Below, piece by piece: positions 2,992-28,500 of a DNA stretch of 64,000 nt. This DNA is from Synechococcus sp. PCC 7336 (GTDB lineage: Bacteria; Cyanobacteriota; Cyanobacteriia; Thermostichales; PCC-7336). The notes below the pieces were generated by a model. It was given only the letters and a program-made list of their open reading frames with translations, made no database searches and had not been told where the DNA came from. How positions within the stretch are numbered: the first letter of the stretch is position 1; every line of letters starts with the position of its first letter. Made by a program: the position numbers and the translations under genes. Where the stretch lies: positions 4,834,008 to 4,898,007 of the forward strand of contig NZ_CM001776.1 in the NCBI RefSeq assembly GCF_000332275.1, read 5' to 3'.

Positions 2992-3012
2992 TAAGCCATA
3001 GAACCATTGGAT

Positions 3013-4437: not shown

Positions 4438-4447
4438 TACGTATCGG

Positions 4448-4484: not shown

Positions 4485-4508
4485 CTCATTACCGCACTCT
4501 CTGCGGGG

Positions 4509-4925: not shown

Positions 4926-5006
4926 GGCTGGAGCATTTCAGCGACGCTGGCGTAGATATAACTTAATTCGGCAGGGCTCAATAGTAGCTTCAGGGCTGGA
5001 TCGCTG

Positions 5007-6230
5007 TCATACCCCAATGCGTAATGCGTCGATTGGTTCGAGATTAGCTGCACGTCGAGCGGGGACTGTCCCAAACACGAGGCCAATGCTTCCAGAAACA
5101 GCAATTGATAAGACAACTATTCCTGATGATATTTCTGGCTGAAAAGGGGTTGCCCAACCAATCACAATCGCTCCGCTCATTCCTAACAAAGCTCCAATTA
5201 TCCCACCTGAAGCCGACATTAAAATTGCTTCCAGTGTAAATTGAAAAAGTATATCTCTACGACTGGCTCCAATCGCTTTCCTCAGACCAATTTCTTGAGT
5301 CCTTTCACTAACTGATACGAGCATAATATTCATAACACCTAGACCGCCGACCAGAAGTGAAATGCCAGCGATGGAAGCTAGCAAAGCCGTTAATGCTCCT
5401 GTTACTGTCCCGGTTAACTCGAGTAAGTCTTTCTGACTGCGAACTGTAAAGTCATCTTCGCTGACAATACGATGTCGCAGGCGGAGCAAGTTAGTGATTT
5501 GGAACTGAGCAGCCCTCATACTTTGCTCGTCTTTTATGGAAAAAACGACGTAACTCAGCTCGATGCCTAATGGAGAAATATTACCAGCCAATCTACTTGC
5601 CATTGTTTGTAGAGGAATGAGAGCCGCTTCATCGTAGTCCAGGCCCACAATATTCGAGCCTTTTTCAGCTAAAACACCAATGACTTCAAAACTGACGCCA
5701 TCGAGGCGAACCTGTTGTCCGACTGGTTGTTTGCCTTCTAATAGGCGATTTGCCAACCTTGCCCCCAGTACGACAACTTGGTTGGCACGCTGCATATCGA
5801 GCTCAGAAAAGAAACGTCCTCGCCCCAAGTCAAATCTTCTCACAAGAGGGAACTCAGAACTCGTTCCGACGATCGTCAGATTTGAACTGAGATTGCCCGC
5901 AGAGATGACGCCTCGCTGATTGTACTCGGGGGCCGATCCGCGAATAGACGGAATTTGCTCGGCGATCGCTTCGGCATCGCTCAGTACTAACGTATTAGGC
6001 ACATTAAATGAAGCCCGCTGGGCCTCGACACTGCCAGGGGTGACTGACAAAATATTGGGGCCTAGACCCTCGATTTCTCTAGAAACAAATGTCTGAGCTC
6101 CTTGTCCAATGCCCACCATGACGATGACTGAAGCATTTCCAATGACGATACCTAAAATCGTCAATCCACTACGCAGCTTATATGCAGAAAAAGTTGCCGC
6201 TGCCATACTGATTACATCTTTAAAATTCAT
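5007..6230 (-). CDS. MacB/DevC-like ABC transporter permease (no ATPase domain)
   Basis: A 407-residue inner-membrane permease of the MacB/FtsX type. ATG at 6230 (MNFKDVISMAAATF) is chosen because it places the usual amphipathic N-terminus before the first membrane helix; a longer frame to 6299 overlaps the upstream gene. Visible features are TM1 (SGLTILGIVIGNASVIVMVG), a large periplasmic MacB_PCD-type domain (about residues 45-280), and three C-terminal helices with the family stretch SVSERTQEIGLRKAIGASRRDI and the ending PARRAANLEPIDALR. Family members power export of siderophores, glycolipids or peptides with a MacA adaptor and a separate or fused ATPase. The adaptor is immediately upstream, but no ATP-binding gene is present, so the ATPase must come from elsewhere. 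Last gene of the minus-strand operon. Confidence 0.87.
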   Translation of the reverse strand: MNFKDVISMAAATFSAYKLRSGLTILGIVIGNASVIVMVGIGQGAQTFVSREIEGLGPNILSVTPGSVEAQRASFNVPNTLVLSDAEAIAEQIPSIRGSAPEYNQRGVISAGNLSSNLTIVGTSSEFPLVRRFDLGRGRFFSELDMQRANQVVVLGARLANRLLEGKQPVGQQVRLDGVSFEVIGVLAEKGSNIVGLDYDEAALIPLQTMASRLAGNISPLGIELSYVVFSIKDEQSMRAAQFQITNLLRLRHRIVSEDDFTVRSQKDLLELTGTVTGALTALLASIAGISLLVGGLGVMNIMLVSVSERTQEIGLRKAIGASRRDILFQFTLEAILMSASGGIIGALLGMSGAIVIGWATPFQPEISSGIVVLSIAVSGSIGLVFGTVPARRAANLEPIDALRIGV

Positions 6231-6255
6231 GGTTATAGAGCGATTGTTTGAGATC

Positions 6256-7695
6256 CTAGGGGGCAAAGTCTTCGATCTTTCGATTGGGAGGCAACTCAAA
6301 AAAAATGCGATCGCCTTCTGCCAATCCGCTTAGCACTTGGGCTTGACGATTGGATGCCAGACCAAGCTCGATCGGTTGGAATTGAATTTCGGCATCCCGG
6401 TCGAGGATAAGGATACCTGTTTTTCCGTCGATGGTGAGAATTGTGGACGTGGGCACTGAGATGGCTGCGGGAATCTCATCTCCAATAAACGAAACATCAG
6501 CATTCATCCCCGCTTGCAGTACGTTTTCTCCACTCACCAACTCGATACGCACTTGAAAAGAGGTAACATTTTGTTCGACTACAGCTTCTGGAGCCACTAG
6601 CGTCACTCGCCCGTCAAAGATGCGATTGGGATAGGCGTCAGCGATAATCTCAACGTGCTGTCCGAGATAAATTTTGCCGATATCAACTTCGGGAACTTCG
6701 GCCAATACCTCTAGTCCACTAGCGATGGAGACGATCGCGGTTGAGGTGGCTGAAGACGCGGTAGAAGCGGATGTGGTGGGTGTCACAAAAGCGCCTGCCG
6801 TCGCGAATTTCTGAGTCACGATGCCGCTGAAGGGTGCTTTAATTACGGTATCCTCCAGTAATATCTCTGCAGATTGCAGACTGGCTTGCAACTCCTCCAA
6901 AGTAGCGGCGGCGGCGGCAATATCTTCAGCTCGATTCCCTCGACGCATTAAGGATAAATTTGATTGGGCTTCTGCCCAGTTAGCTCGTTCGAAATCGACA
7001 GTGGCCCGAGCCACTGTGACTTCATTTTCCACCCGATCGAAATCGTCCGCCGCGATCGCCCCCGCTCTGGCAAGATCTCGATTGCGGCGCAGTCTCATTT
7101 CAGCTAGTAATCGCTGAGCTTCTACTTCCCGAACGCGAGCCTCGGCTTGGGCGACACTTGCTTCGGCTTGAGAGATTTCCTCAGGGCGGTTTCCGGCTAG
7201 AGATTCTTCCAGTTCGGCGAGTGCTCGGGATACCCGAGCGCGCGTTTCTACCACCTCTGCTTCCAGTTCTCGGGCTTCCATCCGGGCAACGATTTGACCG
7301 GCTTCAACTCTATCGCCCTGTTCCACCAGCAGTTCTTCTAAAATGCCTGAGGACTTGGGGCTCAAATTGACTTTTTGCACGGGCTGAATGATGGCACTAG
7401 CCCTCAGGCGAATGGTGAAGGGTTGGGCTCGAACTATTCGAGTGAGTGCTAACAGGTCTTGGGGAGTTACCCTAGTGCGAGTGACGCGCCAATAGCTCGC
7501 TGCCCCGACTGTCGAGAGGATCGCAAGCAGTAGGGCAGCCAACCAGCGTTGCTCGAAATATCGAAAAATGGATAGTGAATAGAGCGTAGAGGCTTTCTCT
7601 GTTGTGCTAGATAGCCACAGCAGGAGAGTTGCCTCGTCAGAGCCCGCCGCGAGGGCGGCGCAGTAGAGATAAAGTCTCGAATAGAGTAAGGACAT
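6256..7695 (-). CDS. MacA/HlyD-type periplasmic adaptor protein
   Basis: A 479-residue membrane-fusion protein that would link the inner-membrane permease to an outer-membrane channel. A membrane helix lies at about residues 53-69, then a lipoyl-like half (LSPKSSGILEELLVEQGDRVEAG), a long Ala/Glu-rich coiled coil (about 125-270), the second lipoyl half (TVIKAPFSGIVTQKFATAGAFV) and beta-barrel and membrane-proximal domains (LEVLAEVPEVDIGKIYLGQ; ISVPTSTILTIDGKTGILILD). ATG at 7695 lies 2 bases past the TGA of the MbtH-like gene, suggesting coupled translation; the roughly 50-residue segment before the helix is long for the family, so a later start is possible. The permease follows after 25 bases. 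In other bacteria MacAB-type pairs export peptide siderophores (PvdRT-OpmQ is the best known), which fits the product inferred for this operon. Confidence 0.87.
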   Translation of the reverse strand: MSLLYSRLYLYCAALAAGSDEATLLLWLSSTTEKASTLYSLSIFRYFEQRWLAALLLAILSTVGAASYWRVTRTRVTPQDLLALTRIVRAQPFTIRLRASAIIQPVQKVNLSPKSSGILEELLVEQGDRVEAGQIVARMEARELEAEVVETRARVSRALAELEESLAGNRPEEISQAEASVAQAEARVREVEAQRLLAEMRLRRNRDLARAGAIAADDFDRVENEVTVARATVDFERANWAEAQSNLSLMRRGNRAEDIAAAAATLEELQASLQSAEILLEDTVIKAPFSGIVTQKFATAGAFVTPTTSASTASSATSTAIVSIASGLEVLAEVPEVDIGKIYLGQHVEIIADAYPNRIFDGRVTLVAPEAVVEQNVTSFQVRIELVSGENVLQAGMNADVSFIGDEIPAAISVPTSTILTIDGKTGILILDRDAEIQFQPIELGLASNRQAQVLSGLAEGDRIFFELPPNRKIEDFAP

Positions 7696-7697
7696 TA

Positions 7698-7919: not shown

Positions 7920-7996
7920 GATTGAATTCCTCCGTAATAGATTGAGTCAAAGTGGGTTTGTTTTGCCGCAGTAGGTGAAGGTCTAGTCTCTGCAAA

Positions 7997-8448: not shown

Positions 8449-11400
8449 TCAATCGGGAAGCAGGCCGCCCGAACGCATTGCCCTGGCACTGTCGCGAAAC
8501 GCAGCGGCGATCGCCTCGATATCGGCATCGGTGTGGGCGCTGGAGAAGGAGCCGCAGTCTGCTTGGAGGTATACCCCCCGCTCTAAGAGGTGATATCGAA
8601 AGACATTGGCACTTCCTCCGGCTAAAGCCCCCCCGATCGATACCAAGCCGAAGCGGGAGCCAAAATGTTTCAGTTGTAAGGGAACTCGCTCGGTTGAGAA
8701 CTCGGCATTGAGGCGATCGACGAATTGGTCAGTGCGCTGGTTGAGCTGAGATTGGAGTTGCGGACCCCGTCGCTGTATTGCTTGCAAAACTGCTCGTGTA
8801 GAGGCCATGGCCAGCGGGTGGGTGCTGTAGGTACTGCCAAATTCTGCGGGCGGAACTTGGGGTGCGGAATCGTCGCCATACTGCCAACTACCGCCGTCGA
8901 TCGCATCTAAATACTCCGCTTTACCCGCGACGATGCCGAGGGGCAGCCCGCCACCAGCCGGTTTGCCATACACTGCCAGATCGGCATCCACCTCAAACCA
9001 AGCTTGGCAACCACCGGGATGAATGCGGAAGCCGAACACCACTTCATCCAAGATCAGAGCGATATTCCGCTCGCGAGTCAGGTGGCGTAACTGCTGCAAA
9101 AAGCCCTTGGGTTGGAGATCGAGGCGATCGGCAATTTGGCTTTGGACGGGTTCCACCAATACTGCCGCCAGCTCTGCTGCACGGGCCTCGACAATTTCGA
9201 GGGAGCGAGGATTGCCATAATCCAACACCAACACATCTGCCACGCTGCTGGCCGGAATTCCAGCAGTTCCCGGTAAACCTTGGGGGTTGAGGTTGAGGCT
9301 GTGGGGGCGGGCAAGGGTCGTGTCGGCGGTGCCGTGGTAGGAGCCTGCGAACAGAGCGATTTTGGCTCGTTGGGTGCGGGCGCGGGCGAGGCGGATGGCG
9401 GCAATGAAGGCTTCGGTACGGGTGCCTGCAAAGCTGACTCGTTCCGAGCCCGTCAGGGTTTGGATGGTTTGGGCCACTTCGGCAGCTAGCGGAGTTGGGG
9501 GGCCGAGAGGGAAGCCTCGCTCGATTTGCTCCAATAGAGCTGCTTTGACACAGGGGGGATTGTGACCCAACAAGGTCACCCCGTAGCTCATGGTCAAATC
9601 GAGATATTCGTTGCCGTCCACATCCCAGAGGCAGGCTCCCTCAGCGCGATCGACGGCGATGGGATAGACCATCTCCTTGAGGCGGGGGTGGAAGCCATTG
9701 CGGTAGCGTCGATCGGCCACTAGCGGGCGGGCGGTGGTGGCGAGTTGCTTAGATTGTTCGGTGCGTTGGGTGTGCCGCCGGGTAAAGGCTTTGAGATAGT
9801 GCTCCTGTTTGGGGGTGGGGTAGTCGAGCAGTTCGGTGCCCGGATCGAGGGGAAGTTCCGACAGGCGGCGATCGGGGTCGGTGGCGATCGCCTCTAGGAT
9901 TACCAGGGCGTGGCGCAGCATTTCGACAATCGTGTCTGAGGTAAATAGGTCGGCGCTGTATTCCAAGAAGCCGACAATTTCGTCACCACTGTCCAACAGC
10001 GAGAGGGTGAGATCGCAGCGGGCGGTACCCCAGTTGACGGGGTAGGAACGAAATTCGAGGTTGCTGCTGCGGGTTTTGGGGTTGTCGGGGTAGCGCTTGT
10101 AGGCAAAAGCCGCTTGGTAGATGGGAGTGCGGCTGAGATCCGGTTCGATGTGGAGGGATTCCACCAATAGGTCGAAGGGCATATCTTGGTGGGCGTAGGC
10201 GGAGAGGGCGAGCTGGCGGATGCGACCCAAGTATTCTTTGAAGGTGGGATTGCCGGATAGATCCAAGCGTAGGGCTAAATAGTTGTTGAAGCTGCCGATG
10301 GAAGATTCCACTTCGGTGTGGCGGCGATCGGCGACGGAGGTCCCCACGATCGCGTCTTCTTGCTGGCTATAGGCGTAGAGCCAGATCGAGTAGGAGGCCA
10401 GCAGGGTCATGTAGAGGGTGACCCCCTCCTGCTGGCTGAGGTGGCGGCAGCGCTCCGCTAAGCCGGAGGGGATGCGCAGGAGTTGGATGTCACCTCGGAA
10501 GCTTTTGATGGCAGGACGAGGGTAGTCTGTGGGCAAATCCAGAATCGGCAAGGGAGGCGCGAGCTGCCCCTGCCAATAGGCTTGGCTGGCTTGGAGGGCA
10601 CCGCTGTCCGAGCGTTTTTGCTGCCATTCGACAAAGTCGTCGTACTGGATGGTCAAGGGCGGTAGGGGGGAGGGTCGACCACTGGCGATCGCCGGGTAGA
10701 GCAGTTCCAGTTCCCGCATAAAGACATTGCGAGACCAGGCGTCGAAAGCTAGTTGGTGGCAGGTGAATAGGGCGATCGATTGCTCGGGATGCTCCCAAAT
10801 GATGCTGGTGCGCAGGAGAGGACCGCTGGCGAGGTCGAAGGGCTGGCGGAATTCCAGGGTGGCGAGGCGCTCGGTTTCGGCAGCGCGAAGGGATTTTGGC
10901 AGGTCACTGATATCGACGACCAATAGGTTAACGGGTAAATCCGGGGGGACAGTTTTGATGACGCGATCGCCCTCAGTTCGAAACCGCGTGCGAATACTGT
11001 CGTGGCGCTGCTGGATGGTGGCGAGGCATTGCTTCAGCACCGGGATATCGAGGGGACCGGTGATGTGTCGGCCAGTGGCGGTGTTGTAGAAGTAATGGTC
11101 GGGGGACACCTGCTGAGTGAAGAACCAGAGGCGTTTTTGGGTTGGAGAAAGAGGTCGTTCCTCGGCGTGCTCGACAGGCACTAAGGGCAGGAGTTCCTGG
11201 CCGGAGGCAGTTTGGCGATCGCGATCGATGAAGGCTGCGAGTTCGGCAATGGTGGAGAATTCGAAGAGTTTGAGCAGGGGCAGGGGTCTGCCGAGCGCCG
11301 TTTGGATGCGGGAGACGAGGCGAATCGCTAGGAGCGAGTGGCCGCCTAGATCGAAGAAATTATCGTGAATGCCCACCCGTTCCACGGCCAACACCTCGGC

Positions 11401-14432: not shown

Positions 14433-17400
14433 TTAATGGGACGATCGCAGGGCATCGAGGAGGCGATCGCGATCTTTGGGGTCAATTTGCGATCTGGCGA
14501 AATTGGGGGAAAGGGTCGCTTCTGCCAGTTGGCTTTCCGAAGTGGCCAAGGATTGCACTGTCTTGGCCATAGCCTCGGCGAGTCTGACAATGGTTTTGCG
14601 GTTGTGGAGGGTGGAGCTGTAGTGCCAGAGGAAGCTCAGGGAGTCGTTGGCAATGTAGCTTTGGAGTTCGAGCACGTAAGGACGTTGAGCCTCCGGGCTG
14701 CGGCTGGAGGTGCAAAGTTCCGGCACTAGCTCTAGGGGCAACCCTGCCTGCGCAGTTGGCGCTCTCTGCATAGACGCCTCCTCAGTTGAAGCCTCGCTAG
14801 TCGAGTCAGTCCCCACAAGCATGCCGAGATGGTCGAAGCAGATGGGGGAGGACGATCTCGACCCTGTTTGGCTGCCGTCCGAAGCTGGGTCGTCGAGATC
14901 GTGCAGCAGGCCGAAATGAACGCCGCTGTTGGGCACCGCTTGTAAGGTTTCGGAAACCTTACGTACAATCGCCTGGTGCGAGTCGTCGAAATCTGCCGCC
15001 AGTTTGAGGGGGAAGCGGCTACTGAAGGGGCCGACGGTTTCGCTAAAGTCAGTGTTCTCCAGCAGCTCGCGCCCCGAGACTTCGAGATCCGCCACCAGCG
15101 ATCGCGCCCCCGTCCAATCCCCCACAGCAATGAGGAGGGCAGCCAATAGAAACACCTCTATCTCGATCCCCGTTCTGGTGACTTTGTCCTGCAACTGTTG
15201 GGTATAGCGCTTGGAAATGGCGATTTTGACGGTTGCGGCTGAGACTGCGAGATTGCTGCCTCTGGGGCGATCCAGCGGTAGAAGGGGTAGGGCTTGCCAG
15301 AGGGGTTGCCAATAGCTCCGTTCGGCTTTGACGCTGGGTGAGCTGGCGATTTCAGGCAGATGTTCGGCCCATTGTTTGAACGAGCAAGTTTTGGGTCTAA
15401 ATTCCACCGCCATCCCCCGCTGTAGCAGTTGGTAAGCCAGCAGCAAATCTTCCAGCAGAATCAGCAGCGATTGACGATCGATCGCTAATTCGTGTGCCAC
15501 AATCCACAAGCGATTGGGGCGATCGTCGCCGCGCTCGAACAGAGCCACATGCAGCAAAGGTCCTGTCTCTAAGTTGAATCCAGCCTGAATCTCTGCCACC
15601 GCCGCCTTCATGGCGAATTCCTCTGCTGTTTCCTTCGGATCGGTAACGTCGAGGCAAGTCAATGGCACGGCAACAACGGTGTCAGCTTGGGCCAGGTCAG
15701 TTCGACAGGTGTCAGGCCCCCATCCCCTAACCCCTTCCCCCAAACTTGGGGGAAGGGGAACAGAACGGTAAATTGCGGGTTTGAGGCTGTTGCTCCCCTC
15801 TCCCAAACTTGGGAGAGGGGCCGGGGGTGAGGGCAATACAGAGCCATCGAACTCAGCTTGGACCGATTCCCAGCCAGCTGCCGTGCGGGTAAAGGATAAA
15901 CGCAGAGCATCGTGGCGCAGCAAACAGAGGCGTACGGCCTCTTGCAAGCAGTCGGCGTCGAGGGCAACACCGCAATCGAGCACCAACGAACGAGCCCAGT
16001 AATGGGGATTGAGGGGTTGCCGCCCAAAGAAACGCTGCTGTTTGGGGACGAGGGGAACGGCACCCGCAACGATGCCCTGTTCGGCCTCGCTGGATTGTGT
16101 GGGAACGGCGATCGCCGCCAGAGCCGCAATGGTTTGGTGCTGAAATAGTTGCGCGGGGTCCAGTTGCCAACCCGCTTGACTGACCAACGACAGAATTTGG
16201 ATACCTTGAACGGAATCGCCCCCCAGTTCGAAAAAGTTTGCGTGGATGCCAATAGGAGAGATGCCCAGTACCTTTTCCCAGGCTGTGGCGATCGCGTTTT
16301 CCGCTGCGCTCGCAGGCAGATCTTCAGGGGCGATCGAGTTGGGCTGAAGAGGGTCTTGACTGGTTGGGGTTGGCAGCGTTGATGCTGTTGCCGATGTGGC
16401 AAGTGGCGAGCTGGCGCTGTCATGAGAGGCTGGCCCTGCAAGGGGCTCTGCGGGTATGACGTTGCCAGCGAGGGCACGTAAAAACTGCGGCGACATCTCG
16501 ACCCAATGGCGCTGGCGTTGGAAGGGATAGGTGGGGAGGGGAAGGCGGTGGCGTTGCTCGCGGGCAGATCCCCCCTGCCAATCCACCTCAACCCCATGTC
16601 GCCACAGTTGACCGAGGGCTTCTAGAGCAGCGGCTAGATCGGCTCGTTCCTGTTTGGCATGGCGGGCAGAGGTCACTAGAGGGTGTTCGGGAGAGGCTTG
16701 TTTGCGAGCCAACGTCGTCAGGGCTTGCCCCGGTCCCACCTCCAAAAGAACCGTATTGGGAGTGTCGAGCAGACATTGGACGCCAGCGGCAAAGCGGACG
16801 GGCTGACGCATCTGTTGCACCCAGTAGTCGGGCTTGGTGGCGGTGTCGGGGTCGATCCAAGTGCCCGTCAGGTTGGAGATAAAGGGGAATTGTGGGGCAG
16901 CCAGGGGAATTTTTTCGAGTTCGGCAGCAAAGGTTGGGGCAATGCTCTCGACGGCGGCGGTGTGGAAGGCGTGGCTGGTGTGTAGCGGTCGATAGCTGAT
17001 GTCTTGTTGCTCCAGCTTGGTTTGGAAGGCAGCGATCGCCTCCGGAGGTCCCGCGACCGCACACAGTTCCGGCGCGTTGTCAGCGGCAATCGCCGTGCCG
17101 GGTACCAACAGGGGCTCGATCTCTCTAGCAGAGCGCGGCACCGCTACCATTGCTCCCGACGGCATTTGAGACATTAGTCTGCCGCGAACGGCCACCAGAC
17201 TAAGCGCATCTTCGAGGGAAAACACTCCTGCCAAGCAAGCCGCCACGTATTCACCGATGCTGTGGCCGATTGCCATCTGGGGCTGAACGCCCCAACAGGC
17301 CCACCACTGCGCCCAGGCATATTCCAGAACAAAAAGTGCTGGCTGGGCTAAGTCAGTTTGCTTGAGTCGCTGCTCTGCCTGGGCTTGCTGCGCGGGATCG

Positions 17401-19163
17401 GGGTAAAGAATGGTGCGCAGGTCTAGATCCAGAAGTGGCTGGAGCAGTTGGCAGCAGCGATCGACCTCCTGACGGAAGACGGGCTCGCCGTCGTAGAGAT
17501 CGCGGCCCATATTGACGTGCTGCGAGCCTTGGCCGGGAAATAAGAAAGCCACGCTACTGTCGCCAGTTTCCCGAGGTTGAATCGAGCTTCGGTCAGGTGG
17601 GGCGAGGGCGGCGATCGCCTCCGGTACGCTCTGGCAGAGGACGACCTGTTTGTGGGCGAAGGGGACGCGGCCTAACTGCAGAGTGTAGGCCAGATCGGCA
17701 AGGGATATATCGGGGTATTGCTGGAGGTGCTCGACCAGTTGCGCGATCGCGGCATCGAGGGCGGTGGCGGTTTTAGCAGACAGCGGTAGCAGTTGCCAGG
17801 GCCGCGAGGGGCCTGAAGGTTGGGGAACTGGGGCTTCTTCGAGGATGACGTGGGCGTTGGTGCCGCCGATGCCGAAGGAACTGACACCTGCCAAACGGGG
17901 GCGATCGCCGCAGTCCCAGTCTTGCAAGGTGGCGTTGACGTAGAAGGGGCTGCGGGCGAAGTCAATGGCAGGATTGGGGGATTGGTAGTGCAGGCTGGGG
18001 GGCAGTTGTCGGTGTTGTAGTGCCAATACCGTTTTGATCGTTCCGGCGATACCCGCAGCAACATCTAAATGACCGATGTTGGTTTTGACGGAGCCTAGAC
18101 CGCAGTAGCCAGTTTTAGGAGCTGTCGATGCATGGGTTCCCGCCCGAAATGCTTGCGTGAGAGCTGCCACTTCGATCGGGTCTCCCAAGGCGGTGCCGGT
18201 GCCGTGGGCTTCGATATAGGAAATTTCGCTGGGGTCTACTTCGGCCACTGCCATCGCTTCGGCAATGACGGCTGCTTGTCCTTCAATGCTGGGAGCCGTA
18301 TAGCCAATTTTGGCCGACCCATCGTTATTGATGGCGGAACCCCGGATGGTGGCGTAGAGGGTATCGCCAGCTTCGATCGCTTCTTCCAAACGCTTGAGGA
18401 CAACAATGCCAGCACCGCTGCCGAAAATCGTGCCCGCCGCACCTGCGTCGAAGGCACGGCAGTGGCCGTCGGGGGAATTAATGCCGCCGGTTTGGTGCAG
18501 GTAGCCAATTCCCTGCGGGAGCTGAATGCAGGCACCGCCAGCGAGGGCGAGATCGGACTCGCGATCGAGCAGGCTTTGGCAGGCGAGGTGAACTGCGACG
18601 AGGGAGGAAGAACACCCCGTTTGGACCGTCAGTGCTGGGCCTTTGAGGTTGAGTTTGTAGGCGACGCGGGTGGCGAGGTTGTCGGGGCGGTTACTGTGGC
18701 GGATTTGACCGACGCCAACAGTGCCGATTAGCTCTGGGTTGGAAAACAGGTTGTAGAGAAAATAGCTGCCGACGCCGACGCCGCCAAACAGACTGATGGG
18801 ATAGGGACAGAGATTGGGGTTGTAGCCTGCCGTTTCCAACGCTTCCCAAGCCAGCTCCAAAAAGAGGCGCTGCTGGGGGTCCACGATCTGGGCTTGGCGG
18901 GGGGGATAGCCGAAAAAGTCGGCATCGAACAGGTCCACATCTTCAAGCACAACGCCCGCATTGACGAAGTTGGGGCGATCGCGCATTTGCGGGCTGACGC
19001 CGTTGGCCTGTAGCTGCTCGTCCGAGAAAAAGGTGACGGACTCCACCCCCCGGCTCAAGTTCTGCCAGAACTGGGCGGGGGTGGCAGCAGCGGGAAAGCG
19101 GTTCGCCATACCGATGATGGCGATCGCGTTAGGCGAGATAGAAGTAGAAGCGGAGTCGAGCAT
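14433..19163 (-). CDS. PKS module KS-AT-carrier with degenerate E-type domain
   Basis: A 1576-residue protein starting with ATG at 19163. Ketosynthase at about 10-435 has active Cys184 in VQTGCSSSL and the His motifs in EAHGTGT and NIGHLD. Acyltransferase at about 540-830 has GHSIGEY, and SHAFH indicates malonyl-CoA. No ketoreductase follows, so a beta-keto group should remain. The carrier (FFELGGDSVQG, about 979) is of the GGDS type that normally precedes NRPS epimerase domains. Indeed an epimerase-like domain fills about 1045-1560 (start VPKQQRFFGRQPLNPHYW; later VGPFSSRFPL and PNSGVHFGLLHDL), but its HHxxxDG reads HELAIDR, with Glu1225 for the catalytic His, so it should be inactive. An intergenic-type repeat is inserted in frame near residues 1105-1153. 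The module looks like KS-AT grafted onto an NRPS PCP-E unit. Confidence 0.9.
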   Translation of the reverse strand: MLDSASTSISPNAIAIIGMANRFPAAATPAQFWQNLSRGVESVTFFSDEQLQANGVSPQMRDRPNFVNAGVVLEDVDLFDADFFGYPPRQAQIVDPQQRLFLELAWEALETAGYNPNLCPYPISLFGGVGVGSYFLYNLFSNPELIGTVGVGQIRHSNRPDNLATRVAYKLNLKGPALTVQTGCSSSLVAVHLACQSLLDRESDLALAGGACIQLPQGIGYLHQTGGINSPDGHCRAFDAGAAGTIFGSGAGIVVLKRLEEAIEAGDTLYATIRGSAINNDGSAKIGYTAPSIEGQAAVIAEAMAVAEVDPSEISYIEAHGTGTALGDPIEVAALTQAFRAGTHASTAPKTGYCGLGSVKTNIGHLDVAAGIAGTIKTVLALQHRQLPPSLHYQSPNPAIDFARSPFYVNATLQDWDCGDRPRLAGVSSFGIGGTNAHVILEEAPVPQPSGPSRPWQLLPLSAKTATALDAAIAQLVEHLQQYPDISLADLAYTLQLGRVPFAHKQVVLCQSVPEAIAALAPPDRSSIQPRETGDSSVAFLFPGQGSQHVNMGRDLYDGEPVFRQEVDRCCQLLQPLLDLDLRTILYPDPAQQAQAEQRLKQTDLAQPALFVLEYAWAQWWACWGVQPQMAIGHSIGEYVAACLAGVFSLEDALSLVAVRGRLMSQMPSGAMVAVPRSAREIEPLLVPGTAIAADNAPELCAVAGPPEAIAAFQTKLEQQDISYRPLHTSHAFHTAAVESIAPTFAAELEKIPLAAPQFPFISNLTGTWIDPDTATKPDYWVQQMRQPVRFAAGVQCLLDTPNTVLLEVGPGQALTTLARKQASPEHPLVTSARHAKQERADLAAALEALGQLWRHGVEVDWQGGSAREQRHRLPLPTYPFQRQRHWVEMSPQFLRALAGNVIPAEPLAGPASHDSASSPLATSATASTLPTPTSQDPLQPNSIAPEDLPASAAENAIATAWEKVLGISPIGIHANFFELGGDSVQGIQILSLVSQAGWQLDPAQLFQHQTIAALAAIAVPTQSSEAEQGIVAGAVPLVPKQQRFFGRQPLNPHYWARSLVLDCGVALDADCLQEAVRLCLLRHDALRLSFTRTAAGWESVQAEFDGSVLPSPPAPLPSLGEGSNSLKPAIYRSVPLPPSLGEGVRGWGPDTCRTDLAQADTVVAVPLTCLDVTDPKETAEEFAMKAAVAEIQAGFNLETGPLLHVALFERGDDRPNRLWIVAHELAIDRQSLLILLEDLLLAYQLLQRGMAVEFRPKTCSFKQWAEHLPEIASSPSVKAERSYWQPLWQALPLLPLDRPRGSNLAVSAATVKIAISKRYTQQLQDKVTRTGIEIEVFLLAALLIAVGDWTGARSLVADLEVSGRELLENTDFSETVGPFSSRFPLKLAADFDDSHQAIVRKVSETLQAVPNSGVHFGLLHDLDDPASDGSQTGSRSSSPICFDHLGMLVGTDSTSEASTEEASMQRAPTAQAGLPLELVPELCTSSRSPEAQRPYVLELQSYIANDSLSFLWHYSSTLHNRKTIVRLAEAMAKTVQSLATSESQLAEATLSPNFARSQIDPKDRDRLLDALRSSH
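15705..15850. repeat. Intergenic-type repeat inserted in frame in a PKS gene (copy 1)
   Basis: This 146-base element shares both ends (ACAGGTGTC ... CAGAGCCATCG) and a C-rich core (CCCCCATCCCCTAACCCCTT) with the copy at 49070-49232. It contains two short palindromes, CCCCCAAACTTGGGGG and CTCCCAAACTTGGGAG. Sequences of this C/G-rich kind are familiar as dispersed intergenic repeats in cyanobacteria. Here it is translated within the epimerase-like domain, adding a Pro/Gly-rich segment that ends GVRGWGPDTC, and the reading frame stays open. Confidence 0.85.
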
Positions 19164-19211: not shown

Positions 19212-22200
19212 CTAGCGCATTCGCGAGGGGCGGCGCTGGCGGGAAGCTAGGCGGCTGGCGGCGCGATCGCGGCTGCGATCGGCGGCTGTAGATTGGGTTT
19301 GGGTTTGCGTCAAATGGGCAGCGAGGGCGCTGACGGTGGTGTATTGGAAGAGGTCGGTGATGGCAATGTTGCGATCGAATAGCTCGCGCAGTTTGGCGTG
19401 CATGGCGATGACGGAGAGGGAGTGGCCGCCTAAATCGAAGAAATTATCCTGAATGCCGACGGTTTCAAGGCCGAGAATCTCCTGCCAGAGGCTGGCAATC
19501 TGGCGCTCGGCCTCCGTGCGGGGGGGGACGTAGGTCGCTTCCAGATCGGGGCGGTTGAAGTCGGGGTCGGGTAAAGCTTTCCAGTCCACCTTGCCGTTTG
19601 CGGTGAGGGGCAAGGTTTTCAGCAGGGTGAAGCTGGAGGGGCGCATGAAGGGGGGCAGCTTCTGCCGCAAAAAGTCTCGCAGGTCGCTGGTGCTGGGGGA
19701 CGCTTGCCCCTTGGCGGCGACGAAGTAGGCGGCCAAGCGGCGATCGGTGGCGCTCTTGGTCCAGACGGTAACAGCGGCTTGTTGAATGGCTGGATGCTGA
19801 ACCAGAGCTGCTTCAATTTCCCCCAGTTCGATGCGATAGCCACGCAGTTTCACTTGGCGATCGCTGCGACCGACAAACTCCAGCTTGCCGTCGGCAAGAT
19901 AGCGAGCCCGATCGCCGGTTTTGTAGAGTCTGGCTCCCTCTTCTCGGCTGAAAGGATCTGGCAGGAATCGCTCTGCCGTGAGGCTGGGGCGATTGAGGTA
20001 ACCGCGAGCCACTTGCGCCCCGCCGATATAGAGGTCTCCCACCACCCCAATCGGCACGGGTCGAAGCTGGCTATCCAGTACGTAGGCTCGGCAGTTGGCG
20101 AGGGGTCGTCCGAGTGGGACGGTATCTCGGGTATCCGCTGAACTTGTTGCATGAGTCAGGACACCTACGGTTGTTTCAGTGGGACCGTAATGGTTGAGGA
20201 CGGCACAGTGATTCGATTGCAGCACTTCGAGCAGATCTCGACTCAAGGATTCGCCCCCCAAGACCAATTGACGTTTGGGGAGTAGCGCTTCCGGGGTACC
20301 GGAGAGTAGCAGTGCGGCCAAGTGAGAAGGAACGATCTTGAGACAATCAATCGGATGCTGCTGGAAGTAGGCGGTTAGGGCAGCGGCATCGGCCACTTGC
20401 GCTTCGGGAATGACGTGCAAGCAGCCGCCGGAGGTGAGGGCGGGGAAGAGAACGGTGTTGCCGAGATCGGCGGCCAAGGTGGAGACCAAGGCAAAATGGG
20501 CGGCTGCGGGCAGGTCCAACTGGGTCGAAATTGCTTGTAGGTAATTGAGCATTTGACGATGCTCGATCGCCACCCCCTTGGGGGTTCCCGTCGAACCTGA
20601 CGTGTAGAGCGCGTAGGCCAGATTGGTAGCGCAGTTCTGGCAGGGAAGATTGTCGTCAGGATAGGTGGCGATCGTATTGGCGTCGCTGCCATCGATATAA
20701 ACCACCGCCGATACCGAATCGGGAACCCTAGCGGCGAGGCGGGTTTGGCTAATCAGGGCGATCGCCTTAGCATCCTGAAGGCGCTGAGCTGCCGCTTCAA
20801 CAGGCAATGTGGGGTCGAGGGGCAGGTAGGCACCGCCTGCTTTGAGTACTGCTAGTAGCGCGACGATGGCATTAGGAGAGCGCAACAGAGAAATACCGAC
20901 GATTGTTTCGGGACCGACCCCCAAGCTTTGCAAGTGTCGAGCCAGTTGATTGGCCTTTGGGTTCAGTTGGCTGTAGGTGAGCTGTTGCCCGCCCCCCGCC
21001 ACGGCAACGCGATCGGGATATTGCTCGACTTGCGCTTCAAAGAGGGTGTGGAGGCCATCGATCGCGGCAAACGATTGTTCGGTTTGGTTGAACGCTTGCA
21101 GAAGTTGGTGGCGATCGCGGTCGTCGAGAATTTCTAGGCGATCGATCGGGCGATCGGGATGGGCCAGGGCATCCTCTACGAGAGCGAGAAACTGCTGTTT
21201 CAGCCGCTGGATATCTGACAGCAGCAAGCGCTGAGTGTCGTAATGGAATTCGAGGGTAAGACCGCGATCGCTGTGGAGACAGGTGAGGGCGAGCTTGAGG
21301 CGGTGACTGTAAACCCGTTGTCGTTCTAGGGCGAGGGCGGTGGAGCCGTTGCGAATAGGGGCCGAGCTACTTGCCCATTCAAAGCCAATCCCTTCGCCAT
21401 GGGTTGCAGCTTCATTCTTGTCAGATGCATAGCCGAAGCTATCTCGGTACTCTTTCGCCGTCGTGGAACTGCTCTGGGATTGGGCGAGGACTTCTGCAAA
21501 TCGGTAAGACGGTTGCAGTGGGTAGCGCAGGGGGAGCCATTTTGCCAGTGGGCCAATGACCGACGCTAATTCCTCCTCATCCCGACCGTCGGCCAGTAGA
21601 TGCAGTTTTCCCTCCGTTTCTCCCGTCAGCTTCCACAGCAAAACTTGCCAGCAAGCGAGTAAAACATCAGCGACTTCGACCTCTTGCTGTCGGGCTAGAA
21701 CCGTCAGTCGAGTCACGGTTTCGGCAGACAGTTGCTCGACCAGAGCGCTAGGGACGAATGTAGGCGTTGCCGATCGCTCCAAAGGCAATGGGAATGGAGG
21801 TGTTGGGGCCGATTGTTTTGGCCAGTAGTCGTCTTCCTCAGTTGCGAGCAATTCATTTTGCCATTCGGAAACCTGGAGGTACTGGACCGGATCTTTATCC
21901 TCCTCGATCGCTCTGCCATCCAGCTCGTAGGCGCTGGCGATCGCGCGCGATAGCAGTTGAAGCGAAAGGCGATCGCCGCAGAGCCCCGAAAGTGTCAAGA
22001 TTAGCCAGCTTTCGCGCTCGGACAAGCTCGCTCGAACTGCTCTCAGGCTCTGGCCTCCTTCCACCAGCTGCTGCTGTTCCGCTTGCAAGCAAGCTTGTTG
22101 GCGAGCGATTTGTTCCGCTTGGGGCAATTCACTCCAATCGCACTCTTTCCAGGTCGGGGGCACAGTCGCAGCGATCGCTTGGAGGGGCAGCTTGGTGCCG

Positions 22201-22427
22201 GGGCGACGGGGAAAGCTAGTGCGCAGAATATCGTAGCGATCGATGACTTGCTGCAGTGCCCTCTGGAGCCGATCGCTCTGGAGGCTGCCGGTCCAGCGCC
22301 AGACCATCTGGCAAGCATAGGTGGAGTTCTGCTGTTGCAGAGTCCAGAGATGCTGTTGCTGCGGAGATAAGCGAAACCCTTGCAGGGGTTGGGGTGCTGG
22401 CAGGGGTGTCGATGGAGCGGTGGTCAT
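19212..22427 (-). CDS. NRPS C*-A(Asp)-PCP
   Basis: A 1071-residue single module. ATG at 22427 (MTTAPS) is preferred to the TTG at 22445; no clear Shine-Dalgarno is visible. The N-terminal condensation-like domain (about 10-440, opening GFRLSPQQQHLW) has lost both histidines of HHxxxDG, reading SGLCGDR at 147-153. The A domain (about 460-965; YTSGSTGTPKG) gives the pocket D-L-T-K-V-G-H-V-G, a well-known aspartate code. The PCP (FFDLGGHSLS, about 1002) is followed by a short Arg/Ser-rich tail. The protein follows directly a synthetase ending in a TauD-type dioxygenase, so the loaded Asp is probably beta-hydroxylated. The C* domain matches the position of the interface domains that recruit such hydroxylases in siderophore synthetases; assigning it to that group is inference. 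Confidence 0.92.
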   Translation of the reverse strand: MTTAPSTPLPAPQPLQGFRLSPQQQHLWTLQQQNSTYACQMVWRWTGSLQSDRLQRALQQVIDRYDILRTSFPRRPGTKLPLQAIAATVPPTWKECDWSELPQAEQIARQQACLQAEQQQLVEGGQSLRAVRASLSERESWLILTLSGLCGDRLSLQLLSRAIASAYELDGRAIEEDKDPVQYLQVSEWQNELLATEEDDYWPKQSAPTPPFPLPLERSATPTFVPSALVEQLSAETVTRLTVLARQQEVEVADVLLACWQVLLWKLTGETEGKLHLLADGRDEEELASVIGPLAKWLPLRYPLQPSYRFAEVLAQSQSSSTTAKEYRDSFGYASDKNEAATHGEGIGFEWASSSAPIRNGSTALALERQRVYSHRLKLALTCLHSDRGLTLEFHYDTQRLLLSDIQRLKQQFLALVEDALAHPDRPIDRLEILDDRDRHQLLQAFNQTEQSFAAIDGLHTLFEAQVEQYPDRVAVAGGGQQLTYSQLNPKANQLARHLQSLGVGPETIVGISLLRSPNAIVALLAVLKAGGAYLPLDPTLPVEAAAQRLQDAKAIALISQTRLAARVPDSVSAVVYIDGSDANTIATYPDDNLPCQNCATNLAYALYTSGSTGTPKGVAIEHRQMLNYLQAISTQLDLPAAAHFALVSTLAADLGNTVLFPALTSGGCLHVIPEAQVADAAALTAYFQQHPIDCLKIVPSHLAALLLSGTPEALLPKRQLVLGGESLSRDLLEVLQSNHCAVLNHYGPTETTVGVLTHATSSADTRDTVPLGRPLANCRAYVLDSQLRPVPIGVVGDLYIGGAQVARGYLNRPSLTAERFLPDPFSREEGARLYKTGDRARYLADGKLEFVGRSDRQVKLRGYRIELGEIEAALVQHPAIQQAAVTVWTKSATDRRLAAYFVAAKGQASPSTSDLRDFLRQKLPPFMRPSSFTLLKTLPLTANGKVDWKALPDPDFNRPDLEATYVPPRTEAERQIASLWQEILGLETVGIQDNFFDLGGHSLSVIAMHAKLRELFDRNIAITDLFQYTTVSALAAHLTQTQTQSTAADRSRDRAASRLASRQRRPSRMR

Positions 22428-22446
22428 GGAATTGGCCGTTAGCAAT

Positions 22447-22501: not shown

Positions 22502-25500
22502 CTATGGAGACGGCAGAGACTCCAGCGGTTCTTCTGGGATGGCAGCGGTATGCATATCTCCCATTGCCACAAAGATTTTGCGGGGGCCTCGGAAGGGATT
22601 GCGGCTGTGGGCGGCAAGCATGTTGTCGATCGCTAGCACGTCCCCCTGTTGCCAGGGGAATACCGTTTGAGCGCGATCGTAGGCGGCTTGAATGGCAGCG
22701 ATCTCTTCCGGTGCGATCGCCGAGCCGTCGCCGTAGTAAGCGTGACGGGGCAGATTCTCCTCACCCCACGTATCCAGTAGCGACTTTTGGAGGTGGGCAT
22801 CGAGGCAGGCGACGTGGTGGAGCAGCAGTTGATTGAACCAGATGCGATCGCCGGTTTTAGGGTGTTGGGCGATCGCGGGGCGAATTTGGCGGGTTTTGAG
22901 TCCTGCTGCTGCCGTCCATTCCCACTGCACCCGATCGCGCTGGCACCTCGCCTCCACCTCGGCGCGGTCTTCTGTATTGAAAAACTGCTGCCAACTGACA
23001 TCGAAGCCGGGAATAAAATGCCGCGTGTAGGCGATTTGGCGTTGCTCGAAGCGATCGAGCAGATCGGGATCGAGCAGGCGGTAGATTTCGCGTCCGTCGG
23101 CAATCGGCGTTTCGCCACCTTCTGCGGGGGCAATAGAGCAGTAAAAGCAAATTTTCATCGGCCATTGCTGCAGGTGGGAGCTCTCGTGATGGAACAGGAT
23201 TGCTTTGTCGGCTGGGTAGGGGGTAGAGCCGTAGACCTTGCCGCCGATGCTGGCCCGAGGTAGGTCGCCATAATTGGCAAACAGTTGCGGACAGATGGCT
23301 CGGGCAAAAGCTTCAAACTTCTCGATGGATTGCAGTTGCTGGCTGCGGAAGAGTAAACCGCCGCGCGCAATCAGGTTCTCTTCAATCCAACTGCGATGGC
23401 TGGCAGCCCAATCCACTAAGTCTGTATCGTCACTGGCGGGTTCCACGAGTAGCGGTAGCGGGCTGGTATCGCTCAAGGGCCGCGCTGTTACGAGTGGACG
23501 ATCGGCGATCGCCTTGGGCTCGATCTGGGCGAACTTGGAGAACTTACGCTGCGATCGCTTGGCTTTGCGGGCTGCCTGCGTCTTTTGTTCTTCTGGGGTC
23601 AACATATCGAGGCTGTCAATGCGGCTAGTGGGGCTGTGGGCAAAGCTGCTCAGAAGGAGGGTGAGATGTTGCGATAGTTGGCGGATGGTGGCTGCATCGA
23701 AAAGGTCGGCACTGTAGCGCCACATGCCCTGCAAACCCGCGCTGGTTTCGCTGACGAAAAGAGCGATGTCGAACTTGGCTCTTTCGTTGGAGATCTCCAT
23801 CGGGCTCAGGGTCAAGCCGGGGAGTTCGATCGGGGTAAACGGCACATTTTGGAACACCAGCAACACTTGGAACAGCGGCGTACTATTGGCCTGACGGTTC
23901 GGTTGCAGTTCCTCCACCAGTTGTGAGAAGGGAATATCTTGGTTGGCATAGGCATCCAAGCAGGTGCGGCGCACCCGCTGTACCAGTTCCTCGACGCTGG
24001 GATTGCCAGAGAGGTCGGTGCGAATCGTCAGCAAGTTGACGAAAAAGCCAATGGCACTTTCCAGTTCGGTGCGGTTGCGGTTGGCAACGTCCGTGCCGAT
24101 GACAACATCTTGCGTCTGGCCGTGGCGAGAGAGCAGCAGGGCCAAGGCCGCCATCACCTGCATGAAGGGGGTTGTGTCGGTTTGCTGGCACAGTTGGTTG
24201 AGGGCAGCGGTGTCTGCCGCCGAGAGCTGGAAGGACTCGCTACCGCCGCGATAGCTGCGCCGAACTGGGCGAGGGCGATCGCCCTTTAACACCAGCGGCG
24301 AACTCCCGGCCAACTGCTGCTGCCAGTACTGCAATTGCGCTTGTAGAACGGCACCATCCAATTGCTGCCGCTGCCAAACGGCAAAATCGCCGTATTGAAT
24401 CGGTAGGGCGGGTAAGGGGGAGGGCTGGCTGGCAGCGTAGGCAGTATAGAGGGCCGACAGCTCCCGCACTAAAACCCCCATCGACCAAACATCGGAAATG
24501 ATGTGATGGGTGGTGAGGATGGCAGCGTACTCGCGCTCGTCCATTTGCAGGAGTTGAAGCTGGAGCAGGGGACCGCGCTCCAAGTTGAAGCAGCGCGAGC
24601 TTTCCCCCTGCATCTGTCGTGCCAGCGCTGCCTCTCGATCGCTGGGGTCGAGGTGGCGTAAATCCTTGTGGGCAATTGCCAGTGATGCGGGCGGGGCGAT
24701 CGCCTGCACGGGCTCGCCATTCTCCAAACTGAAGGTGGTGCGCAGTGACTCGTGGCGACTCACGACTTCGTCGAGGCAGCGTTGCAGGATATCGCGATCG
24801 AGATCCCCCTCAAGGCGCACGGCTATCGGAATCGTGTAGGCGGGGTTGTTGGGATAGAGGCGATCCTCAATCCACAAGCGCTGCTGGGCTAGCGACAGGG
24901 GCAGAGGCCGATCGCGGGGCACAGTCGGAATGGCGATCGCGACCTCCTGCCGCTCCACTTGCAAGAGTCGCTCGATCTGCTCGGCGATCGCCGCAATGGT
25001 GGGGGTGGCAAACAGCGATCGCAGCGGTAGCTCCACCCCGAACTCCGTGCGGATGCGGGAGATGATTTGGGTGGCGAGGAGGGAATGGCCGCCCAGATCG
25101 AAGAAGTTGTCGTCAATGCCGATGCCATCGCGAGCGAGGATGGGAGTCCAGATTTGGCAGAGTTTTGCTTGTGTTGGGGTTTGGGGCAGCACAGCTGCGT
25201 CCGCCAACTGAGGGGCGATCGCTGGGGGGGCGGGGAATGCCTTGCGATTGACCTTGCCATTGGGGGTGAGGGGGAAGTCTTCCAGGATGACGAAGGCAGT
25301 CGGCACCATGTAAGCGGGCAGCTTCGAGCGGAGGAGATTCCGCCCAGCAGTAATTGGGCCATCACTCGCTCGGGAAGCTGCGAGTGCGGGAATGACATAA
25401 GCCACCAGTCGTCGATCGCCCTCGCGATCTTCGCGCACGACGGCAACAGCCGCTCGAATATCGGGGGCTTCCAGCAAGCAGGATTCAATTTCCCCCAACT

Positions 25501-28500
25501 CGATGCGAAAGCCGCGCAGTTTGACCTGGTTGTCGATGCGCCCGAGGAATTCCAAGCTGCCGTCGCGACGGTATCGCACGCGATCGCCAGTCTTGTACAG
25601 CCTTGCCCCCGGTCGTTCGCTGAAGGGATCGGGGCAGAAGCGAGCGGCGGTGCGAACCGGTTGCTTGCAATATCCCCGCGCCAGTCCCGCACCCCCCACA
25701 TGCAATTCCCCCGGTACGCCTAGAGGGGCCAGTTGGCCGCAGAGATCGAGGACGTAGAGCTGCGTATTGCCGAGGGCACAACCGAGGGAGATCGCTTCCA
25801 CTGCTGGTGCGATGCGCTGGAACGCCGTCCAAATGGTCGCTTCGGTGGGACCGTAGAGATTCCACAATTCCCGGCAGGAGCGGCTCAGGGCTCGTGCCAG
25901 CGGCAACGGTAACGCCTCGCCGCCGCAGAGAACTTGCAACTGCTTGTCACCCGACCAGCCCGAATCCAGAAGCATTTGCCAGGTGGCGGGGGTAGCCTGC
26001 ATCGCCGTTGCGCCACTGGAGGCAACGAGCTGGCCTAGCCGTACTCCATCCGCCGCTACGGCGCGGGTGGCGATCGCCACCCGCGCCCCAACCGTCAGAG
26101 GCAAAAACAATTCCAGTGCCGCAATATCGAACGATAAAGTTGTGACCGACAGCAGCACATCTTTCGGACTCAGACTCAACTCCTGCTGCATCGCCCTCAG
26201 GAAATTGACGACGGCAGCGTGGGAAATCTGTACCCCTTTCGGCCTGCCGGTGGAGCCGGAGGTATAGATCTGGTAGGCCAACTGCTGCGGATGGGTTGTC
26301 GTCGGCAGTGGGGCATCGTGGCCGGAGGCGATCGCCTCGGAGCCCTCGTCTAGAAGCACCACGCGAGCCTCGCCAACGGGCAAGCTCTCCAGTAGGTGCG
26401 CCTGCGTCACCACAATCGCTGCCCCACTGTCTCGCAGCATGTAGCTCAGTCGCTCGGCGGGATAGGTGGGGTCGAGAGGGACGTAGGCTCCGCCCGCTTT
26501 GAGAATGGCCAGCATTCCCACCAGCATTTCGACGGAGCGATCGATGCAGAGGGCCACGAGCGTGTCGGTGCCCACACCCAGGGGGTGGAGGTGGCTGGCG
26601 ACGCGATGGGCCAGGATATTGAGTTCGCCGTAGCTCAGCGATCGCCGCTCGTCTGTAACGGCGATTGCGTCGGGCGATCGTACCGCCTGAGTTGCAAACC
26701 ATTCGTGCAAGCCGAAGCTGGGAACGTCAGTGAAGTCCTGCCCTTGCCCCCAGCACCGCAGGCGATCGCCTTCTTCACGTTCGTAAAGGGGCAACTCCAA
26801 CCAGTTGCGATCGGGGGTGCGCACTGCCGCTGCCAGCACAGTCCGGTAATGGCTGGCCATCTGGGCGATGGTTTCGCCATCGAACAAATCGGTGTTGTAT
26901 TCCCAAGCCGCAAAGATGCCCGCTTCGGTCTCCTCCATCAGAAGGCTGAGATCGAACTTAGCGGTTTTGACTTCCGTTTCCACTGGCGAGAGGATGAGCC
27001 CCGGCAACTGCAGCTCTGCTTTGGGGGTGTTTTGCAAGGAAATGGCCACCTGAAAAACCGGACTGTGGCTCAACTGGCGTTCGATCGGCAGCGTTTCCAG
27101 CAATTGCTCGAAGGGTAAATCTTGGTGGGTATAGGCTTCGAGCGCCACCTGGCGAACCCGTTGCAGAACGGCGCGGAAGCTAGCCAATGCCGTCAAATCC
27201 GTGCGGATTGCCAACGTGTTGGTGAAAAAGCCAATGGTTCCTTCCAGCTCGGCGCGGCTGCGATTGGCGATCGGAATACCGACGACAATATCGCTGCAGT
27301 TGGCATAGCGACAGAGCAAGACCTGGTAAGCCGCCATCAGCACCCCGAACAGGGTGGCCCCTTCCGATCGGCCCAACTCCAGCAACTCGTCCCGCAGTTG
27401 GATGGGCAGTAGATCGACATGGCGATCGCCCCGATAGGTCTGGAGGGCGGGGCGGGGGCGATCGGTGGGTAACTCCAGCAGGCTGGGGGCTCCGGCAAGC
27501 TGTTGGTGCCAGTATTTGAGCAATTGCTCTAGCCCTTCCCCCTGCAGCCACTGCCGCTGCCACACGGCGAAGTCAGCATACTGAATGGGCAACTCCGGCA
27601 GGGGCACCTCTCGTCCGGTGGTGAAGGCAGTGTAGAAGGCCGCCAGTTCCCGCAGGACGATCGCGCGGGACCAGGCATCGAAAATGATGTGATGGGTGTT
27701 GAACAGGGCGATGGATTCTGTCGCCGAAAGCTTGAAGATCGTCACCCGCACCAAGGGACCTGTGGCGAGATCGAAGGGCATGCGCGCCGCTTGTGCCACC
27801 AGTCGCTCCACTTCATCGTTGCGTTGGGCTGCCGGTAAGGGTTGTAAGTCAACCACGGGCAGCGATCGCGGTTGATAAGGAGCGATCGTCTGGACGGGTT
27901 TGCCCTCCACTTCTGCAAACGTGGTCCGCCAGACTTCGTGCCGTCGGGCGATGGCGTTAAAGCTGCGTTCCAGGGCAGAAAGGTCTAGTTTCCCACTGAG
28001 GCGCAGGGTGAAGGGAATGCTGTAGGTGCTGCGATTGGGTTCGAGGCGATCGAGGAGCCACAGCCGCTGCTGGGCATACGACAGGGGCATCGTTGACTGA
28101 CGCTTGACGGCAACGAGGGGCGGGGCGTCGAGGGCTCGATCTTGACGCATCAGGGTTTCAATCGCCTGGGCCAATCCTGCTACGGAGGGCTGTTCGAAGA
28201 GTGCGGCTAGGGGCAGCTCGACCTCGAAGGCGCGGCGCAGCCGAGAGATAGCCTGCGTGGCGAGGAGAGAATGACCGCCAAGGGCAAAGAAGTTGTCCTC
28301 CAGACCGACTCGTTCGACCTTCAGTAGCTGGGACAGGATTTGGGCGATCGACTGTTCGACATCGGTGCGGGGCTGGACGTAGGTGCTGGCGGAGGCGAGG
28401 GAGCTGGGAGCGGGTAATGCTTGCAGATCTACTTTGCCGTTCGGCGTCCGAGGGAATTGCTCTAGCAAGACGAACGCAGCGGGCACCATGACATCGGGTA

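Follow-up and report, generated by a model that had tools for sequence, protein, structure and literature searches.

The window, a 64,000-nucleotide stretch of DNA from Synechococcus sp. PCC 7336, encodes a PKS/NRPS assembly line whose genes run, from start to end, FAAL-PCP-KS-AT, P0010, P0009, P0011, P0008, P0007, P0006, P0005, P0004, P0003, P0002 and P0001 (Table 1). No NRPS gene lies beyond P0001 in the list of open reading frames, making P0001 the last NRPS protein. Upstream, beyond the cluster start, a PF01497 iron-type binding protein and an ABC transporter are encoded; a separate, type II-like gene, also upstream, gives the sole strong match to a thioesterase domain in the region. The G+C content is about 59% within the cluster versus 45-51% at window positions 1-8000, and the composition of the cluster is therefore unlike that of its downstream neighbours. 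The Asp code DLTKVGHVG occurs in two modules consisting of an interface-like (I) and an A domain. As in the cyanochelin-like line (PMC12628792), Asp modules, TauD hydroxylases and a FAAL-type fatty-acid loading domain occur together, and the cluster is probably a beta-hydroxy-Asp lipopeptide line of cyanochelin type with a siderophore role.

Table 1. Coordinates of features in the window (AMT, aminotransferase; asterisks mark domains with an altered catalytic motif)
Feature	Window position	Strand	Basis or remark
P0001, C-A-PCP-C*-AMT	8449-14397	-	1982-aa open reading frame without stops; domain scans
C(8-453)-A(477-964)-PCP(994-1057) of P0001	11227..14376	-	last amino-acid module
C* of P0001, aa 1079-1519	9841..11163	-	Pfam PF00668 at aa 1079-1517
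AMT of P0001, aa 1526-1982 (start approximate)	8452..9822	-	class III aminotransferase, PF00202
K1812, PLP Schiff-base lysine	8962..8964	-	kept (YGKP); alignments
R1660, PLP-phosphate loop	9418..9420	-	GTRTEA instead of N[TS]GTEA; Arg for invariant Gly
P0002, KS-AT-PCP-E*	14433..19163	-	Pfam, E profile, motif
P0003, interface-like C (I)-A-PCP	19212..22445	-	A code DLTKVGHVG (Asp)
P0004, I-A(Asp)-PCP-C-A(Gly-like)-PCP-C-TauD	22502..31297	-	profiles, motifs, A codes
P0005, stand-alone TauD-family dioxygenase, predicted Asp beta-hydroxylase	31294..32361	-	PF02668
MacB/FtsX-type permease and HlyD-type adaptor	5007..7695	-	directly downstream of P0001; Pfam

The interface-like domains of the cluster lie N-terminal to an Asp A domain and carry the motif PALCxD. 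In P0008 (window 42644-52117), a tandem of C and I domains precedes one A domain; this I domain reads HQIAADG and is a second His-to-Gln domain in the cluster, of a different class from C*. P0006 (window 32361-38003) contains at aa 1101-1373 an E-type domain from which the N-terminal half, and the catalytic motif with it, is missing; the DCL C domain behind it is intact. Additionally, a luciferase-like monooxygenase, P0011 (window 52190-53584), is encoded between two PKS/NRPS genes by a reading frame that overlaps the end of P0009, and it possibly alpha-hydroxylates the fatty chain.

The C-terminal end of P0001 is the principal subject of this analysis. Domain scans confirmed that the last NRPS ends in PCP-C*-AMT, as the initial annotation had stated, and the motif table and alignments bore out both the C* motif HQLAFDA with Gln at residue 1215 and the retention of the PLP lysine. 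The first C domain of the protein is of DCL type. C* is a full-length, LCL-like, terminal domain of condensation type: it follows the last carrier, has no A domain behind it and has lost the second His of its motif. Specifically, it reads HQLAFDAWSRN where related C domains read HHxxxDG/A, and it is the sole C-class case of a second His replaced by Gln among the 223 C, I and E domains of related loci included in the motif table. Neither a thioesterase (TE) nor a thioester reductase (TD) domain lies behind it. By profile, C* scores as an ordinary C domain (691 bits), the I domains matching a profile of their own, and in a tree computed without G511, the genome with a counterpart described below, it grouped neither with C domains that precede TauD nor with I domains. 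Its best structure match is the C domain of teixobactin Txo2 (263 bits); the X domain 4tx2 scores 159 bits.

Two precedents bear on what such a substitution may signify. The glycopeptide X domain is an inactive C-type domain (HRxxxDD) that follows the last carrier and brings P450s to the peptide held there (PMC5238595, PMC11546977). C* resembles it in being of C type, in its position, in the replaced second His and in having a tailoring enzyme as partner, but it lies nearer to ordinary LCL domains, and its putative partner, paired with it by gene fusion and adjacency, is a PLP enzyme. Conversely, the C domain of streptothricin ORF18 reads HQxxxDM and is active: it couples the chain carried on a PCP with streptothrisamine, a free amine, and mutation of its Gln abolishes activity (PMC11546977); a Gln at this position of C* thus need not mean inactivity. 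In following the last carrier with no A domain behind it, C* is also similar to a terminating condensation domain.

A further comparison is offered by the siderophore interface domain, which was reportedly described by Reitz et al. in 2019. The domain is named in antiSMASH 8 (PMC12230676), and, as is proposed here for C*, it is a member of the C superfamily that is thought to position a tailoring enzyme. C* differs in standing behind the last carrier with the motif HQxAFDA, whereas the I domains of the cluster are N-terminal and carry their own motif. The initial annotation had drawn a more specific parallel, reading the C domain joined to TauD as an altered C* as well. This was a misreading: in P0004 the C domain that precedes TauD is intact (HHIISDV), HH is kept in 7/7 of the PCP-C-TauD domains surveyed, and the parallel fails for this reason. 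The degenerate domain instead stands at the N-terminus of the following protein, ahead of the Asp A domain.

The protein that immediately precedes P0001 had been described as KS-AT-carrier without ketoreductase (KR). The Pfam scan likewise found no KR in P0002, but the description was incomplete, as the protein also contains a full-length E-type domain (E*, window 14523-16091, aa 1025-1547) whose motif, HELAIDR, has lost its second His. Lying behind the carrier of a KR-less PKS unit, E* is no less plausible than C* as a docking site for the AMT.

The AMT itself is, by alignment, a complete protein of the stand-alone type, N-terminal region included, fused behind C*. K1812 aligns to the corresponding Lys of the mycosubtilin MycA AMT and of GSA aminomutase (GSAM), and the majority of the remaining conserved residues are likewise present. 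The initial annotation had not recorded that Gly1660 in the PLP-phosphate loop is replaced by Arg; Gly occupies this position in 103/103 other AMTs and in the MycA and GSAM structures. The Arg could weaken PLP binding, and such a change would leave room for an AMT reaction other than transamination.

Relatives of the AMT were drawn from 386 cyanobacterial genomes and from the 80 nearest loci out of 84,980 species genomes. Those closest to the window AMT are stand-alone, about 470-510 aa long and 48-55% identical to it, and within the 80 loci a terminal gene of the form ...A-PCP(-E)-TD lies directly upstream of 60/67 stand-alone AMT genes, at a median gap of 57 bp. The TD assignment was confirmed by TIGR01746, with MxcG-like full-length matches, and KS is absent from the locus stretches of all 60 TD-linked AMT loci. 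In the myxochelin pathway (MxcG/MxcL), the AMT aminates an aldehyde after its release. Given their position behind TD, the 60 relatives presumably also aminate released aldehydes. No TD was found near the cluster in the source genome. Compared with termini composed of TD and a stand-alone AMT, as in cyanobacterial NRPS and following MxcG/MxcL logic, the window AMT belongs to the same family (50-56% identity) and likewise ends a line of beta-OH-Asp type; the window differs in having C* in the place of TD, a changed PLP loop and changed neighbouring residues, and a KR-less PKS unit.

The proposal that this AMT is of the mycosubtilin or microcystin type was not supported. In every tree it falls within the TD-linked stand-alone family, apart from 25 in-line AMTs that include MycA, with maximum-likelihood support for its separation from the in-line clade of 99/98 and 100/99 (100/99 in the last tree); AU tests of trees grouping it with in-line AMTs gave p = 0.089 and 0.177, neither of which rejects that grouping, and in the first trees it had the longest branch, the outgroup aside. 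At the columns of R1917, F1934, W1945 and R1947, which are conserved in in-line AMTs, the window AMT has G, R, Q and D, and its discriminating positions, mostly TD-like or like neither group, are TD-like in 11 cases versus in-line-like in 3. As judged from the trees, the window AMT is probably a descendant of a family that normally works behind a TD. In-line AMTs (mycosubtilin MycA, microcystin, puwainaphycin) do share a superfamily with it, the MycA AMT structures 6kfm/6kfu giving a match of about 400 bits, and they too lie near an unreduced PKS unit; in the trees they form a separate clade, however, and they follow KS-AT-carrier within one protein, whereas the window AMT stands behind C* with KS-AT-PCP in the preceding protein.

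A counterpart surfaced in a class-wide search, in genome G511 (loci L190, G511:C4:91100-111000, and L211-L215). Its cluster begins with KS-AT-KR-DH-ER-PCP, C-A, two KS-AT-KR-PCP units, C-A, KS-AT-KR-PCP, C-A(Gly-like)-PCP-C and TauD, continues with I-A(Asp)-PCP-E, C-A-PCP-E-C-TauD and I-A(Asp)-PCP, and ends with KS-AT-PCP-E*, C-A(Pro-like)-PCP-C* and AMT, the last two being separate neighbouring genes. Gene order, together with gene lengths identical to those published for FatD, FatK, FatP and FatQ, leads us to infer that this is the published fatuamide cluster of Leptolyngbya sp. (PMC11877528). The order I-A(Asp)-PCP, KS-AT-PCP-E*, C-A(Pro-like)-PCP-C* and AMT, with TauD genes alongside, is shared with the window; the fatuamide line differs in that C* and AMT are unfused and in starting from salicylate-thiazoline, the window line starting from a fatty acid (PMC11877528).

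The resemblance extends to individual residues. The code of the A domain of P0001, DVQFIAQVA, is Pro-like and identical in G511. The G511 C* reads HQNAFDAWSRN (47% identity to the window C*), the G511 E* reads HSLVIDS, having lost its second His as in the window, and the G511 AMT loop reads GTRTEA, with the same Arg. The two AMTs have in common a 3-residue insert and 16 residues seldom seen in 103 other AMTs, among them R1660, F1788, P1813 and S1855, and they form one clade (support 100/99). With the same substitutions present in G511, the changes are not the private decay of one gene; the replacement of the second His by Gln in C* is not noise. Fused in one genome and adjacent in the other, the window gene is best described as a fusion of two co-travelling genes. 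On the residues compared, the altered C*/E*/AMT terminus is conserved in two distant lineages that use different starter units, although the two known C* loci, being homologous, count as one evolutionary event.

The search for other C*-AMT ends yielded unfused neighbours with the HQ motif, and a KR-less KS-AT-PCP lies immediately upstream in both C* loci, which partly supports the earlier suggestion that an altered C domain and an AMT occur beside an unreduced PKS module. The pairing and the KR-less module stood in both loci, and the arguments from TauD and mycosubtilin fell away. Set against the absence of KS from the locus stretches of all 60 TD-linked loci, the KR-less PKS unit upstream in both loci makes an association of this AMT with an unreduced PKS a reasonable reading.

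Across 376 and 373 cyanobacterial genomes, in overlapping sets, the window genome and G511 were the only ones with HQxxFDAW in a C domain; matches to the pattern in G395, G527, G229 and G018 were set aside, none lying inside a recognised C domain. The fusion seen in P0001 occurred in no other genome among 386 cyanobacterial genomes, a pattern scan of 84,980 species and the class-wide search. The pattern scan used two peptide patterns that are absent from the G511 AMT, so it would miss G511, further members may have been missed, and the apparent rarity is no proof of rarity. In a plasmid collection, no C*-AMT fusion occurred among the matches read, and the sole record covering the query has the order AMT-C. 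This record, Planktothrix plasmid NZ_LR882964.1, was rejected as a second C-AMT fusion: it reads KS-AT-PCP-AMT-C and is a joined-piece artefact. Similarly rejected were in-line-like open reading frames, each about 2000 aa long, from the taxonomic order to which G511 belongs; these read AT-PCP-AMT-C or AT-PCP-AMT and have a normal loop.

Interpretation of this terminus starts from what the two clusters contain, namely the architecture of P0001, the missing TD, the conserved changes in C*, E* and AMT, fusion in one locus and adjacency in the other, and the KR-less module. Fused or adjacent, and carrying the same unusual changes in both loci, C* and AMT look like a functional pair, and fusion together with adjacency is the argument for their acting together. 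The explanation favoured here, which is tentative and judged somewhat short of an even chance, is by analogy that C* serves as a non-catalytic, X-domain-like platform that presents a ketone-bearing chain on the last carrier to a re-tooled AMT. On this view an assembly line for a beta-hydroxy-Asp lipopeptide, probably a siderophore, closes with P0001, a fusion of a Pro-like module ending in C* with a stand-alone class III aminotransferase, in which C* takes the place of TD, the KR-less KS-AT-PCP-E* unit lies just upstream and the cofactor pocket of the AMT has changed. C* would form no peptide bond; it would keep the completed beta-ketoacyl-prolyl chain tethered to the final carrier and offer it to the AMT, as the X domain does for P450s. 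The AMT would aminate the ketone that the PKS unit, having no KR, leaves in the chain, and release would follow by cyclisation or through the upstream type II thioesterase. We infer that C* is non-catalytic and binds the AMT; the activity of the AMT as a transaminase, its substrate and the mode of product release are likewise presumed. Against the platform stands the fact that the AMT does not have the residues conserved in AMTs that act on carrier-bound beta-keto chains, and that C* is LCL-like by sequence, the X domain not being its closest match; membership of the X family is not claimed. A broader version, in which C* founds a new recruiting class of C-type domains separate in origin from X and interface domains, is considered doubtful. 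In it, C* would pass the complete beta-ketoacyl-prolyl peptide, still on its carrier, to a PLP enzyme with a cofactor-phosphate loop rebuilt around Arg, and transamination or another PLP reaction would replace reductive release as the final reaction on the line.

C* could instead be an active terminating condensation domain that couples the chain to a soluble amine, made by the AMT from a small aldehyde or ketone. The ORF18 precedent, an active HQxxxDM domain that uses a soluble amine (PMC11546977), allows C* to catalyse release with an amine supplied by the AMT, and the absence of TE or TD behind C* and the aldehydes on which AMT relatives presumably act agree with this. The authors of the fatuamide study, moreover, propose terminating C units, one of them after the final Pro, which corresponds to the C* of G511 (PMC11877528). 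Coupling of this kind is nevertheless judged unlikely: the likeness to ORF18 is one of motif only, no candidate soluble substrate was found encoded nearby, and both the constant KR-less PKS-E* unit and the changed AMT pocket would go unexplained. That same unit is the basis of a proposal in which the end of the line is a cyclisation. A KR-less KS-AT-PCP with a single amino-acid module after it and no TE would supply the kind of substrate from which tetramates are made, and the Pro-like module of P0001 fits this pattern. A Dieckmann cyclisation of the beta-ketoacyl-prolyl thioester, spontaneous or brought about by C*, might give a Pro-derived tetramate that serves as third metal ligand beside two beta-OH-Asp residues, the AMT acting later or on a different ketone. 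Beside the two Asp-coded modules and their TauD enzymes there is a place for a third bidentate ligand, and the iron-type binding protein encoded upstream is in keeping with such a role. The tight pairing of AMT with C* finds no explanation in a tetramate, which is regarded as rather unlikely.

The KR-less unit immediately upstream would equally permit the AMT to aminate the beta-keto group while the chain still sits on the carrier of P0002, ahead of Pro addition, in trans and in the manner of mycosubtilin, C* being the leftover of a lost downstream module. An in-line arrangement of this sort, I-A-PCP / KS-AT-PCP-AMT-TE, does follow a predicted beta-OH-Asp unit in Nostoc FACHB-110 (L142). The window AMT, however, lies outside the in-line clade and is without the conserved in-line positions, and the Gln and overall sequence of C* are kept in two distant genomes, unlike a leftover; amination in trans thus appears improbable. 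At the far end of the range is the view, held to be very improbable, that the terminus is decaying, TD having been lost and E*, C* and AMT having drifted into inactivity. Otherwise invariant residues are indeed lost in three consecutive domains, the AMT branch was the longest bar the outgroup in the first tree, and P0006 has its truncated E domain, but the reading frames are intact, the lysine and most conserved residues are kept, and G511 has the same substitutions. A simple form of decay, the amputation of a final I-A-PCP-TD gene with fusion to a redundant AMT, was dropped, as in G511 these substitutions occur unfused.

The fusion of two genes in one genome and their separation in another is classical evidence for joint function, and it is met here for a Gln-altered C-type domain and an aminotransferase. 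The altered pair is a putative conserved way of finishing such molecules. If the platform role is true, the idea of recruiting domains, established for P450s with X domains and hydroxylases with interface domains, would extend to PLP enzymes. Since altered domains of this type are known both as recruiters (X) and, with HQ, as active catalysts (ORF18), C* provides a test of whether the Gln is the mark of recruitment or of active release. Genes can also be assigned to the end of the fatuamide pathway, which had lacked an explanation. The word 'aminotransferase' appears nowhere in the main text of the fatuamide paper (PMC11877528), and as an AMT gene adjoins the last C domain, the closing part of the pathway to fatuamide B may have to be revised.

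Several further loci were observed in the course of these comparisons. At L110, L120, L100 and L131, stand-alone AMTs adjoin diverged TauD-like genes, and TD was not found in the locus stretch; at L131 a KS-AT-PCP without KR then follows, with a C-terminal tail of about 300 aa that has no domain call. In L142 (Nostoc sp. FACHB-110), the order TauD / I-A(Asp)-PCP / KS-AT-PCP-AMT-TE is followed by a second, stand-alone AMT, which has a long branch and no TD found in its locus stretch. Finally, the source genome contains a second, smaller NRPS locus (L040, G000:C1:3124000-3143000), encoding A-PCP and C-A-PCP, the latter with a partial thioesterase match.
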